A DNA stretch of 64,000 bases. It comes from Streptomyces sp. WAC 01529 (GTDB taxonomy: Bacteria > Actinomycetota > Actinomycetes > Streptomycetales > Streptomycetaceae). Within the stretch, counting starts at the first letter, position 1. Each line of letters opens with the position of its first letter. The translations under genes and the position numbers were made by a program. Under the pieces are notes generated by a model that saw nothing but the letters and a program-made list of their open reading frames with translations, searched no databases and had not been told where the DNA came from. Below, one piece after another: positions 3,281 to 42,598 of this stretch. Location: the NCBI RefSeq assembly GCF_003945545.1, contig NZ_CP029617.1, positions 2,243,001 to 2,307,000 of the forward strand, given 5' to 3'.

Positions 3281-3552
3281 GCCTGTCCCGCCCGCTTCGC
3301 GGCGGATCTCTCCCACCCACCCACCCGTTCACCCCGTACCGGGTGGGGCCGTAGGAGCCTCAAGCTCCCGCCCTCCGCGGTGACGCCCGCAACCCCGGCG
3401 CGAAGGGACGGGTGGGGCGGTCCGGGGCTAGCGCCGGGCGCCGGGCGGGTGGGTGGGAGACATCCGGCGCGAAGCGGCGGGACAGGGCATCGCGCCGGGT
3501 GCCGGGCGGGTGGGTGGGGAACATCCGGCGCGAAGCGGCGGGACAGGGCTTG
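3281..3552. repeat. GGGTGGGTGGG/GCGAAGCGGCGGGACAGG repeat: one inverted and two direct copies
   Basis: A ~46-base element occurs at 3443-3487 and 3504-3548, in tandem with a 61-base period, and again in inverted orientation at 3281-3327. A further inverted-orientation relative lies at about 20152-20188. Each copy contains a GC-rich hairpin (CGCTTCGCGGCG or its complement) beside a run of CCCACC units. The whole 2884-3682 interval holds no credible gene: only the terminator, the 47-base repeat and this element. Confidence 0.75.
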
Positions 3553-11316: not shown

Positions 11317-12729
11317 CTAGCTGGGCCAGTGGGCGATCTGTACGTTCTCCAGTACGCCGACCGCGTCCGGTACGAGGATGGCGGCGGAGTAGTAGGCGCT
11401 GACGAGGTATGAGGTGATCGCCTTCTCGTCGAGACCCATGAAGCGGACCGACAGACCCGGTTCGAACTCCTCCGGCAGGCCGGTCTGGTGCAGCCCGATG
11501 ACTCCCTGGTTCTCCTCTCCGGTACGCATGCAGAGGATCGAGCTGGTCCGCTCCTCGGTGATGGGGATCTTGTTGCAGGGGAGGATCGGGACCCCTCGCC
11601 AGGCCGGGACCTGCTGACCGCCGAGGTCGACGTGGTCCGGGTAGAGCCCGCGCGCGTTGAACTCACGTCCGATCGCCGCGATCGTCCTGGGGTGCGCCAG
11701 GAAGAACTTCGACCCGCGGCGGCGGCAGAGCAGATCGTCGAGGTCGTCCGGGGTCGGCGGGCCGGAGTGCGGCTGGATCCGCTGCTTGAAGTCGGCGTTG
11801 TGGAGCAGCCCGAACTCCCGGTTGTTGATCAGCTCGTGCTCCTGGCGCTCGCGCAACGCCTCGATGGTGAGCCTGAGTTGCTCCTCCGTCTGGTTCATCG
11901 GCCCGTTGTAGAGGTCGGCGACCCGCGTGTGGACGCGCAGAATGGTCTGCGCGACGGAGAGTTCGTACTCGCGCGGCTTCAGTTCGTAGTCGACGAAGGC
12001 GCCGGGCAACTCGTGCTCGCCGGTGTGCCCGGCCGACATCGCGATCTCCGCCTCACCGCGATGGTTCTGCCGCCGGCGGGAGCGCGACTTGAACTCTTCG
12101 AGGTGGTCCCGCAGGCTCGGCGCCGTGGACAGCACGGCCGCGAGGTCGGCGCGTGACAGGGTCAGCAGCGTGCCGGGCGTCTCGGCGGTCGCGGTCTGCT
12201 CCCACCTGGCGTCCTCGTCCAGCAGAGCGTGCGCTCCGAAGTGGTCGCCGTCGGCGAGTACGTCGAGGGCGACCTCGCCGCCGTAGTTGCCGACGGTGGT
12301 CTGGCCGATGCGGCCGTGGGCGATCAGGTACAGCTCGCCCGCGGGCCTGCCGCGCTCCACCAGCCTCTCACCGCTGCGGAAGTCGCGTTGGACGCACCGG
12401 TCGGCGAGGGCGGTCAGCACCTCCACGTCGTCGAAGCCGCGCAGCGGCGCCAGTTCACCCAGTTCGCGGGGGATCACCCGGACGTCGGCGCCGTCCTGGA
12501 CGAACTCCACGGACCCGTCGCCGACGGTGTAGCTCAGACGCCGGTTGACGCGGTAGGCGCCGCCCTTGGTCTCCACCCAGGGGAGCATCCGCAGCAGCCA
12601 GCGGGAGGTGATCTCCTGCATCTGCGGGGCGGACTTGGTCGTGGTGGTGAGGTTGCGGGCAGCGGCCGTGCCCAGGCTGGACTGCCGGGGCAGCTCCAGC
12701 CGCGTATCCGGGCTCGAGTCAACAGTCAT
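11317..12729 (-). CDS. eshA: EshA-type family 2B encapsulin with cyclic-nucleotide-binding-like domain
   Basis: Shell protein of 470 residues. The first ~90 residues form an N-arm and start of the HK97-type fold. A cNMP-binding-like insertion follows (about 90-205: [43 protein letters not shown]). Then comes the E-loop/P/A-domain region ([55 protein letters not shown]). The protein was once annotated as a Crp-like regulator, but no helix-turn-helix is seen. Heads the methylisoborneol operon, with AAGGAGA 10 bases before the ATG. Family knowledge assigns it as the compartment that houses the synthase. Ligand of the cNMP-like domain uncertain. Confidence 0.9.
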
Positions 12730-36614: not shown

Positions 36615-37259
36615 TCAGGACGCCGCGGGGCGCGGGGTGATGCCGTAGAGGGCGTACTCGACGAGCTTGTCCGCGTAGGCGTGGGTCAGGGGGCCCGAGC
36701 GCATCAGCCAGCGCTGGGCAAGGGGGCTCGCCCACAGCTCCAGGGCGATACGGGGGTCGACGTCGGGCAGGACGTGCCCGGCGTCCTGGGCGCGGCGCAC
36801 CCGGTTCACGAAGAGCTGGAGCTGCGGTTCGAGGAGCTTGGCCACGAACTCCTCGCCCAGCTCGGGGTTGAGCAGGCCCTCGGCGGCGAGCGCGCGGTAG
36901 GGGGCGTCGTACTTGGAGTCGTTGAACTCGTCGACGGTGGCCCGCATCACGAACTTGAGGTCGGCCTCCAGGTCCCCGGAGTCGGTGATCTCGGTCTGGA
37001 CGGCGTCCTGTCCCGCGTTCTCGCTCGCGGCCCGGGAGGCCTGCTCGGCGAGGTCGAGGAAGGCGTCGAGCAGGACGGCGCCCTTCGACGGCCACCAGCG
37101 GTAGATCGTCTGCTTGCCGACGCCGGCGCGGGCCGCGATGGCCTCGATCGTCAGCTTGGCGTACCCGGCCTCGGTGACGAGGGCGAGGGCGGCGTCGTAG
37201 ATCGCGCGGCGCGAGCGTTCGCTGCGGCGCGTGGAGTCGGGGGCGGTCTTCTGAGACAT
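36615..37259 (-). CDS. TetR-family transcription repressor
   Basis: 214 residues. N-terminal HTH: SRRAIYDAALALVTEAGYAKLTIEAIAARAGVGKQTIYRWWPSKGAVLLDAFLDL, with the recognition helix VGKQTIYRWW. The C-terminal ligand domain resembles the TetR_C subgroup (VDEFNDSKYDAPYRALAAEGL). ATG at 37259 gives MSQKTAPDSTRRSER; longer frames upstream are ignored. Three phased inverted repeats upstream are its likely operators, and the divergent DUF6243-type gene is the likely target. Ligand unknown. Confidence 0.9.
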   Translation of the reverse strand: MSQKTAPDSTRRSERSRRAIYDAALALVTEAGYAKLTIEAIAARAGVGKQTIYRWWPSKGAVLLDAFLDLAEQASRAASENAGQDAVQTEITDSGDLEADLKFVMRATVDEFNDSKYDAPYRALAAEGLLNPELGEEFVAKLLEPQLQLFVNRVRRAQDAGHVLPDVDPRIALELWASPLAQRWLMRSGPLTHAYADKLVEYALYGITPRPAAS

Positions 37260-37284
37260 GCCGTCGAATGTAGCAGCGCCGAAC

Positions 37285-37355
37285 CGAGACGTACCGTCTT
37301 GACAAGACGCGGCGTCTCGCTCAAAGTGGAGTCCTCGGCGAGACGATCCGTCTCG
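37285..37355. promoter_or_regulatory. Three TetR-type operators, CRAGACG-N3-CGTCTYG
   Basis: Sites at 37285-37301 (CGAGACGTACCGTCTTG), 37303-37319 (CAAGACGCGGCGTCTCG) and 37339-37355 (CGAGACGATCCGTCTCG, perfect). Their starts are 18 and 36 bases apart, multiples of one 18-base step. They fill the gap between the TetR gene and the divergent small gene. Confidence 0.75.
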
Positions 37356-37389
37356 TCGGTTCGGCGGAATTCGATGGAGGTGGGCACAC

Positions 37390-37575
37390 ATGACCCGAGG
37401 CGGATCCGGAAACATGCTGGGCGTCGGCGGCACCCGCAGCAACCTTCCCCGCAAGGCCCTGCGCGGCGCGGGCCGCGGTGGACGCGTCGGCGGCGGGCTG
37501 AGCCCCCAGGAGCAGAAGCGCGAACTGCTGCGCAAACTGCGGGAGGGGCGCGAGTCGGGCGGCGGCCGGGCGTGA
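37390..37575 (+). CDS. Small DUF6243-type protein, 61 residues
   Basis: MTRGGSGNMLGVGGTRSNLPRKAL, then a Gly/Arg-rich middle, then LSPQEQKRELLRKLREGRES. Basic, soluble, helical C-terminus. The GNMLGVGGTR motif is the hallmark I associate with DUF6243 proteins of Streptomyces. GGAGGTG lies 7-8 bases before the ATG. Divergent from, and probably repressed by, the adjacent TetR protein. Function unknown. Confidence 0.75.
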   Translation: MTRGGSGNMLGVGGTRSNLPRKALRGAGRGGRVGGGLSPQEQKRELLRKLREGRESGGGRA

Positions 37576-37669
37576 ACCGCGCGGGGCCGTGAGCGCGGAA
37601 GGCCGTGTCCCGCGATGGGCCGTGAGCACGGCTGCCCGGCGTCGGCAACCACCCGTTCGGTGCACAGCG

Positions 37670-37795
37670 CGAAGGCTCCTCACACCGCACTATGGGCAGC
37701 AACTGCCCCACGGGGGGCGGCAACTGCCGCACCATGGGCAGCAGCCCGCCCACACCGGGCGGCATCTGACCCCTGCGGTACGTGAGGAGCCTTCG
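37670..37795 (+). ncRNA. Structured leader RNA upstream of ddaH, sequestering its ribosome site
   Basis: 37670-37683 (CGAAGGCTCCTCAC) pairs with 37782-37795 (GTGAGGAGCCTTCG), 14 perfect pairs. After a 2-base bulge, ACCGCA (37684-37689) pairs with TGCGGT (37774-37779). The closing stem swallows GAGGAG (37784-37789), the ribosome site of the next gene. Inside are hairpins GGGCAG-CAA-CTGCCC (37694-37708), GCGGC-AACT-GCCGC (37717-37730) and CCGCCC-ACACC-GGGCGG (37746-37762), with a competing GGGC-AGCA-GCCC (37736-37747). ATGGGCAGCA and GCAACTGCC each occur twice. I do not recognise it as a known riboswitch class. Confidence 0.6.
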
Positions 37796-38629
37796 TTGTC
37801 CCGTTTTCCTCGCTCTCCTCGGCGCGCCACACCCCGGCGCTATCTGATGTGCCCACCGGCACACTTCAAGGTCACGTACTCCATCAACCCCTGGATGGAC
37901 CCCGCCAAGCCGGTCGACGTCCCGCTCGCCGTCGCCCAGTGGGAGGACCTGCGTGACCGCTACCGCTCGCTCGGCCACACCGTCGAGGAGCTGACCCCCC
38001 GCCCCGGCCTGCCGGACATGGTCTTCGCCGCGAACGGCGCGACCGTCGTGGAGGGACGCGTGCTCGGCGCGCGCTTCGCCTACCGCGAGCGCGAGGAGGA
38101 GGCGGCGGCCCACCTGGAGTGGTTCCGCGCGCACGGCTTCACCGAGATCCACGAGCCCACCCACATCAACGAGGGCGAGGGCGACTTCGCCGTCACCTCC
38201 TCCTACGTCCTCGCCGGGCGCGGCTTCCGGGCCAGCCCGCTCTCGCACGGCGAGGCACAGGAGTTCTTCGGCCGCCCGGTGATCGGGCTCGACCTCATCG
38301 ACCCCCGCTACTACCACCTGGACACCGCGCTCGCCGTCCTGGACGACGCGGCGGACGAGGTCATGTACTACCCGCCCGCCTTCTCGCCCGGCAGCCAGGC
38401 GGTCCTGCGGAGCCTGTTCCCCGACGCGGTGATCGCCGAGGAGCCCGACGCCGAGGCGCTCGGGCTCAACGCCGTCTCCGACGGGCTCCATGTGCTGCTC
38501 CCCCAGGCCGCTCTCGGGCTCTTCGAGCCGCTGCGGGCGCGCGGCTACGAACCCATCGGGATGGACCTGAGCGAGCTGCTCAAGGGCGGCGGCAGCGTGA
38601 AGTGCTGCACGCAGGAGCTGCGGGGCTAG
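37796..38629 (+). CDS. ddaH: Dimethylarginine dimethylaminohydrolase (amidinohydrolase family)
   Basis: 277 residues; hydrolyses N-methylated arginines (or a related guanidino compound) to citrulline and amine. Family marks: HFKVTYSINPWMDP, DMVFAANGATVVEGRVLGARF, EGEGDF (substrate-binding acidic loop), YYHLDTALAVLD (catalytic His) and GGGSVKCCTQELRG with the catalytic Cys near the C-terminus. TTG at 37796 is preferred, with GAGGAG 6 bases upstream; ATG at 37850 is the alternative. The frame is open upstream through the leader, but that part reads as low-complexity His/Gln/Pro. Its 3' end overlaps the convergent hydrolase gene by 4 bases. Confidence 0.87.
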   Translation: MSRFPRSPRRATPRRYLMCPPAHFKVTYSINPWMDPAKPVDVPLAVAQWEDLRDRYRSLGHTVEELTPRPGLPDMVFAANGATVVEGRVLGARFAYREREEEAAAHLEWFRAHGFTEIHEPTHINEGEGDFAVTSSYVLAGRGFRASPLSHGEAQEFFGRPVIGLDLIDPRYYHLDTALAVLDDAADEVMYYPPAFSPGSQAVLRSLFPDAVIAEEPDAEALGLNAVSDGLHVLLPQAALGLFEPLRARGYEPIGMDLSELLKGGGSVKCCTQELRG

Positions 38630-42353: not shown

Positions 42354-42438
42354 CCGCTGATCCTACGGGGGTACGGGGGCGGCGGTCTCGTCTGCCCACT
42401 GCCGCCGTCCGGCGGGTGCGGGCCGTCTCGGGCTGGTC

Positions 42439-42510
42439 GCGCAGTTCCCCGCGCCCCTACGGGGCGCGACCCCGGCCGAGCCCCGTCAGGGGCGCGGGGA
42501 ACGGCGCGAG
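42439..42510. repeat. Dispersed GCGCAGTTCCCCGCGCCCC element, inverted pair
   Basis: A direct copy (GCGCAGTTCCCCGCGCCCCT at 42439, with ACGGGGCGC) and a nearby inverted copy (GGCGCGGGGAACGGCGCG at about 42490-42507). Each contains a GGGGCGC/GCGCCCC hairpin. The pair lies in the 285-base gap between the Rsm22 gene and the serine hydrolase. Confidence 0.8.
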
Positions 42511-42598
42511 CAACCACGACGCACCCGCTGGGCAACCCGCCACGCGACCGCGTCTGCCTACTGCCGCCGTCCGGCGAGTGCGAATCGTCTTCGGCTGA

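Follow-up and report, generated by a model that had tools for sequence, protein, structure and literature searches.

The closest described parallels to the leader considered here come from phage T4 and from a transposable element. In the account given of T4 gene e, which encodes lysozyme, the longer early transcripts fold in such a way that the ribosome site is hidden (PMC3014915). For I-TevI, a structure is described that forms only on transcripts initiated upstream, the late transcripts being too short at the 5' end to form it (PMC2988022). In both cases, according to the passages of these papers that deal with the two genes, the late promoters are placed so that their transcripts miss the 5' part of the structure (PMC3014915, PMC2988022), and a passage of the second paper attributes arrangements similar to that of I-TevI to the homing endonuclease genes I-TevII, I-TevIII, segB and Aeh1 mobE (PMC2988022). 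The insertion sequence IS200 is described in the relevant part of another paper as having two structures, one stem-loop that terminates impinging transcripts and a second that occludes the ribosome site (PMC3196728). In the analysis presented below, we argue that a stem in front of the Streptomyces gene ddaH is, on balance, probably a device of the same general kind, namely a read-through silencer (insulator) that keeps ddaH silent on mRNA arriving from a neighboring gene.

The locus lies in the window, by which we mean the whole 64-kb stretch of DNA that was analyzed, from a genome of 8.27 Mb. The ddaH gene (37796-38629, + strand) begins with TTG, and its reading frame encodes a dimethylargininase (NF045659, 424.9 bits against a cut-off of 300) whose nearest named relatives are those of Streptomyces. 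A small co-directional gene of 61 residues (37390-37575, + strand), with a match to DUF6243 (PF19756, E 2.4e-14), lies upstream, and divergent from both is a TetR-family regulator gene (36615-37259, - strand), recognized by its frame and start and by a Pfam TetR_N match in the first 84 residues. The palindrome GAGACGATCCGTCTC (37340-37354), in the intergenic region from which tetR and DUF6243 diverge, is probably a TetR operator; some relatives have similar strings close to tetR, on the 5' side of ddaH. Elsewhere, the window contains a full-length match to Rfam Sernc350 (RF02735, 139.9 bits; 12188-12698, + strand), which Rfam describes as a Saccharopolyspora sRNA of the antisense type, as well as two imperfect inverted repeats, one of 36 nt at 92% (3292-3327 with 3442-3477) and one of 28 nt at 89% (42431-42458 with 42488-42515). 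A search of the open-licence literature in PMC found nothing on the ddaH leader or on DUF6243.

The stem itself can be read directly from the DNA. The 5' arm CGAAGGCTCCTCAC (37670-37683, + strand) and the 3' arm GTGAGGAGCCTTCG (37782-37795, + strand) form 14 perfect base pairs, also present in the fold, and beyond a 2-nt bulge (37780-37781) the pairing continues for another 6 bp between the upper extensions ACCGCA (37684-37689, + strand) and TGCGGT (37774-37779, + strand), just as the earlier note had it. That note was equally right about the ribosome site: the Shine-Dalgarno sequence GAGGAG (37784-37789, + strand), the sole good ribosome site of ddaH, is inside the 3' arm and 6 nt 5' of the TTG at 37796, and the 5' arm is an anti-Shine-Dalgarno sequence. 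The same GAGGAG or a near form, at a similar spacing, occurs in the other leaders listed. The perfect arms enclose 98 nt. The predicted fold of 37650-37820 has an energy of -88.1 kcal/mol against a mean of -66 for shuffled versions (z -5.52), and none of 200 shuffles equals it. The window contains, at 3 places, 6 pairs of perfect inverted 14-mers whose arms are separated by 20-150 nt, the ddaH stem among them, compared to a mean of 0.43 and a largest value of 3 in 30 shuffles; a general repeat search of the window did not have the ddaH stem among its output. When upstream complements were sought for 134 matches to a ribosome motif plus start codon, the ddaH site had the strongest in the window (-39.7 kcal/mol, the median being -24.6), with overlapping matches counted apart and the ddaH site occupying ranks 1 and 2. 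The next-best ribosome site reaches -38.5 kcal/mol in this G+C-rich DNA, and so duplex energy alone is not decisive for the stem.

The interior is a different matter. The repeats noticed there are real, with copies of ATGGGCAGCA at 37692-37701 and 37734-37743, but the three to four hairpins attributed to this region are not firm, since the minimum free energy and centroid structures disagree inside the stem and the interior is not conserved. The pair of ATGGGCAGCA copies (37692-37743, + strand) has the look of a local duplication, with no conserved aptamer, and is uncommon among the relatives: L012 has one shorter segment, and L011 and L040 have altered ones.

What is conserved across Streptomyces leaders is a pair of short elements around the 5' arm. 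The leader set was assembled from 111 matching loci (L001 and L009 both being the window's own) and 100 more loci, giving 211; a ribosome site together with both elements, called blocks A and C, was found in 207 of the 211, with 4 failing, and 182 leaders remained after identical leaders and those with a block A score below 10 were dropped. Block A (37647-37670, + strand) is a 24-nt element with the consensus AACCACCCGWTCGGTTCACTGCGC, and is a putative activator site plus -35 region. Block C (37688-37693, + strand), a putative -10 element, is a hexamer of the form [CG]A[CT][CGT]AT, which reads CACTAT in the window, at a near-fixed distance from block A. The distance from the start of block A to the start of block C is 41 nt in 157 of the 207 leaders, 42 nt in 30, 40 nt in 18 and 39 nt in 2, the hexamer pattern and an allowed distance of 39-42 nt having been part of the rule by which leaders were selected. 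An earlier search, which allowed 33-42 nt and placed the anchor two bases later, failed for 11 of the 111 leaders; among the other 100 it gave a distance of 39 nt in 69, of 40 nt in 18 and of 38 nt in 13. In a later set of 150 leaders (see below), the distance is 41 nt in 108. The spacing of the two blocks is thus conserved; block C and the ribosome site, by contrast, are anywhere between 23 and 155 nt apart in the 100 leaders of the earlier search. Conservation ends 5' of block A, and the spacer between the blocks is less conserved than either block.

Judged by their sequence and placement, blocks A and C look like promoter DNA, which could be activator-dependent, with A over the -35 region and C at the -10 position. 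The base found 12-13 nt beyond the first position of block C tends to be an A or a C, and this preference together with the distance to block C places the predicted start of the ddaH transcript at 37698-37701 (+ strand). The two elements flank the 5' arm at their near-fixed spacing, as would suit a transcript without that arm, but the promoter consensus is poor: CACTAT fits the housekeeping -10 sequence badly, and a consensus scan for promoters found none. With regard to block A, the genome contains a single copy and no second match at 3 or fewer mismatches, so that the idea of a block A regulon was dropped; the block is perhaps the only target site of one regulator. Because the 5' arm of the stem lies between blocks A and C, within the presumed -35/-10 spacer, a transcript from such a promoter would lack the 5' arm. 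A start inside or after the 5' arm, which the earlier note had considered incompatible with its own reading of the leader, is what these conserved promoter-like elements predict.

Block C also contains an ATG in 118 of the 150 leaders of the later set, and this opens a short peptide (MGSNCPTGG... in the window) which in 36 leaders ends in a TGA overlapping the ribosome site. These features could suggest an attenuator in which translation of the upstream reading frame controls ddaH. However, the frame from the ATG to the ribosome site is random (45, 37 and 36 of the 118), 35 of the frames are open through in frame with ddaH, and 32 of the 150 leaders keep block C without an ATG. A translated attenuator peptide, in which the frame should be conserved, was rejected on the random frames, and we consider it extremely unlikely.

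The distribution of the stem is quite unlike that of the two blocks. The stem was scored as present when at least 11 of 13 core pairs could form between positions -17 to -5 before block C and positions -2 to +10 of the ribosome site, and by this measure it is present in 25 of the 182 leaders. Watson-Crick pairing at this ribosome-site register is 0.46, as compared to 0.18-0.35 at 21 other registers. On the DdaH tree the stem-bearing leaders are scattered (22 of 97 rows, with at least 12 changes), and some of the stems are built from different but matching bases, as in L074 with 19 perfect pairs, L109 with 15, and L024, where the run is 18 long and includes a single GU and a single mismatch. 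Two near relatives with DdaH proteins 97-98% identical, L011 and L040, are stemless, with 8 and 6 of the 13 pairs, respectively.

The presence of the stem goes with gene order: it is frequent where a same-direction DUF6243 gene is upstream and rare otherwise. Upstream context was compared for 179 of the 182 leaders, omitting 3, one of which has the stem, whose DUF6243 match is distant. In this first sample, where the association was noticed, the stem is present in 17 of 34 leaders with DUF6243 just upstream and in 7 of 145 without it (Fisher 1.5e-9). A later set was then formed with 60 added loci, 34 from genomes not used before (among the matches listed) and 26 from earlier genomes carrying DUF6243 or their kin; it comprised 170 loci, of which 164 passed and 6 were dropped, and 150 non-identical leaders. 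After the loss of 1 locus with a low block A score and 4 identical to earlier leaders, the 34 loci from unused genomes gave 29 new leaders, none identical to an earlier one and several of them close relatives, and by the same criterion the stem is present in 5 of 6 with DUF6243 and in 0 of 23 without. The corresponding counts for new leaders less than 95% identical to any earlier one are 3 of 4 and 0 of 18, and for those less than 90% identical, 2 of 2 and 0 of 10. Over all 150 leaders the stem is found in 22 of 40 with DUF6243 and 8 of 110 without (p 1.5e-9), a raw table to be read in the knowledge that the 26 loci were picked for DUF6243 or kinship and the set is therefore enriched by choice. 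The 8 stem-bearing leaders of the second group are exceptions to the association.

The association was also examined on a tree of ddaH DNA for the 150 leaders, on which the 40 occurrences of DUF6243 require 18 changes. Of 18 edge-disjoint pairs of nearest leaders, one with and one without DUF6243, drawn on the best tree irrespective of branch support, 15 have the stronger duplex in the member with DUF6243 (Wilcoxon p 0.0007, sign p 0.0075), and the 7 pairs discordant for presence of the stem are all in the expected direction (7:0). Over 59 jittered pairings, the result for the stem has a median of 6:0 and a median p of 0.03, with a worst p of 0.22; for a duplex threshold of -28 or lower the worst p is 0.375. 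A strict test confined to well-supported branches of the protein tree had only 5 pairs and no power. The nearest contrast is between L010, which has both DUF6243 and the stem, and L011, whose DdaH is 97% identical and which has neither.

These comparisons bear directly on the idea, put forward in the earlier note, that the leader is a multi-branch riboswitch or protein-binding RNA with a sensor inside the closing stem and the ribosome site as its expression platform. In riboswitches that sequester the ribosome site, this site is found inside the closing stem, and the ddaH ribosome site is likewise within one; the strong fold of the leader and the matched changes in the DUF6243 group would also fit. 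The ddaH leader differs, however, in having no conserved aptamer and in a 5' arm that the transcript of ddaH itself probably lacks. The interior varies in both length and sequence (in the 25 leaders with the stem, block C and the ribosome site are 24-90 nt apart); the stem is itself missing from most of the 182 leaders and from the near relatives L011 and L040; and the conserved block A is almost entirely outside it. Zero Rfam families match the ddaH leader at gathering thresholds. Covariation of the stem is not significant over the 182 leaders, with 159 of 2000 permutations reaching the observed value. Furthermore, there is no obvious reason for a sensor to follow the presence of DUF6243. With an unconserved interior, no Rfam match and a stem that is not itself conserved, the riboswitch was rejected, and we regard it as very unlikely. 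The narrower part of the earlier claim, that an RNA stem sequesters the ribosome site, has fared better, being supported by prediction and by matched changes above chance in the DUF6243-bearing genomes. Permutation tests at the ribosome-site register show matched pairing beyond expectation in the DUF6243 group (0 of 5000 permutations), where kinship can inflate it; the other leaders show no such excess (1579 of 5000).

The lack of genus-wide covariation might also be taken to mean that the stem is an inert by-product, in which a G+C-rich promoter spacer resembles the complement of the ribosome site by chance and is kept by ancestry, and the spacer consensus does resemble that complement in many leaders. 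Chance and ancestry accord poorly, however, with stems of 15-19 bp that are built from different matching bases in separate lineages (L074, L109, L024), and with a tie to gene order that is seen in two samples and in the tree pairs. We judge this reading to be very unlikely indeed.

We favor instead the silencing of ddaH on incoming transcripts, and the predicted accessibility of the ribosome site differs between long and short transcripts in the corresponding way. Long transcripts were modeled with starts at most 10 nt before block A, and short ones from a point 12 nt downstream of where block C begins. The predicted cost of opening GAGGAG on long transcripts has a median of 16.6 kcal/mol in leaders with DUF6243 and 6.3 kcal/mol in those without, while on short transcripts the medians are 6.0 and 6.1 kcal/mol. 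A long-minus-short difference of at least 6 kcal/mol is predicted for 19 of 34 leaders with DUF6243 and 4 of 145 without. In the window, the predicted opening costs are 20.9 kcal/mol for the long transcript and 9.2 kcal/mol for the short one. A cost of 9.2 kcal/mol implies that the short form is not fully open either, and on this predicted short transcript, itself structured, the ribosome site has a mean unpaired probability of 0.04.

A second type of structure is found in the leaders that have DUF6243 and lack a strong stem (duplex weaker than -28). Another strong hairpin, starting at or right after block C, is present in 13 of these 16, in comparison with 9 of the 110 leaders without DUF6243 and 1 of the 24 with a strong stem; an example, from L086, is TTGGGCACGCACG(ATCCA)CGTGCGTGCCCAA. 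Hairpins of the TTGGGCACG type, with 13-14 bp perfect or nearly so, lie 3' of block C and ahead of the ribosome site in L085, L086, L088, L089, L242, L256, L257, L258 and L261, all DUF6243-bearing loci without the ribosome-site stem, and also in L274 and L235, both of which are without DUF6243. With thresholds chosen after the data had been seen, one or the other device is present in 37 of 40 leaders with DUF6243 and 19 of 110 without (p 1.3e-17); by the same thresholds the discordant tree pairs are 10:0 (worst p 0.07 over the 59 jittered pairings), and the later genomes give 6 of 6 and 2 of 23. The 3 of 40 DUF6243 leaders with neither device are L070, L259 and L264. The second hairpin type may cause termination, or it may keep ribosomes off.

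The local hairpins at 13 of 16 such loci are what might be expected if the inverted repeat were mainly a terminator or 3'-end stabilizer of the DUF6243 message and its overlap with the ddaH ribosome site a secondary matter, and this explanation would also account for the tie to DUF6243. For stems of the type found in the window it is less apt. The loops are long (the 98 nt noted above for the window), and a search of 37200-37900 for terminator-like sites, defined as a G+C-rich hairpin with a short loop and a downstream T run, found 0. In addition, the arms hold one register on the ribosome site (0.46 versus 0.18-0.35, as above), for which a terminator would have no need. We therefore think a terminator rather unlikely as the main role.

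The insulator that we propose for ddaH would operate as follows. The promoter of ddaH would consist of blocks A and C, with an anti-ribosome-site arm embedded in it between the -35 and -10 regions. Transcripts from the DUF6243 promoter would run through into ddaH; such read-through is suggested by the same-direction neighbor, whose 3' end is 71 nt before block A, with no terminator-like site between. The read-through RNA, with both arms, would then fold and hide the ddaH ribosome site, silencing translation. RNA started at the ddaH promoter would begin past the 5' arm, making the stem impossible, and would be translated. Since its own RNA would be translated and read-through RNA silenced, ddaH would obey its own promoter and be deaf to the DUF6243 transcription unit. 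Where DUF6243 has been lost and the divergent tetR has become the upstream neighbor, there would be no incoming read-through and the stem would accordingly decay, as exemplified by L011 beside L010. The presumed order of evolutionary change is loss of DUF6243 followed by loss of the stem.

The general question raised by this locus is how an independently regulated gene remains independent when its neighbors often read through. We see about even chances that Streptomyces uses promoter-embedded anti-ribosome-site arms as insulators, such that transcripts from outside are translationally dead and the gene's own are live, with the arm, or a hairpin that replaces it at the start site, being maintained only while a same-direction neighbor is upstream. 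The upstream gene varies many times between close relatives in the genus, which makes it possible to test, by statistics as well as at the bench, how gene order and RNA structure are linked. If the proposal is true, the folding of genomic DNA has in some cases yielded riboswitch-like leaders that are in fact promoter DNA, folded only in read-through RNA.

The placement of a promoter inside the 5' arm of a stem that hides a ribosome site is already known from phage T4; at ddaH, the gene that it appears to guard is a metabolic one on the chromosome. In its action this leader would be like those of T4 gene e, I-TevI and IS200, and the likeness is one of arrangement, with no homology implied. As with gene e and I-TevI, the stem is predicted to hide the ribosome site on the long transcript (at 20.9 kcal/mol in the window). 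Gene e differs in being a phage gene whose regulation is demonstrated and serves a temporal purpose, whereas the regulation of ddaH is predicted and its purpose is apparently insulation from a neighbor. The genes of the I-TevI group are mobile phage genes, whereas ddaH and DUF6243 are bacterial neighbors, and the device is mostly absent when the upstream gene is. By analogy, the two types of structure among ddaH leaders recall the two stem-loops of IS200, but IS200 is a transposable element with both structures together, while ddaH is a host gene that usually has one or the other.
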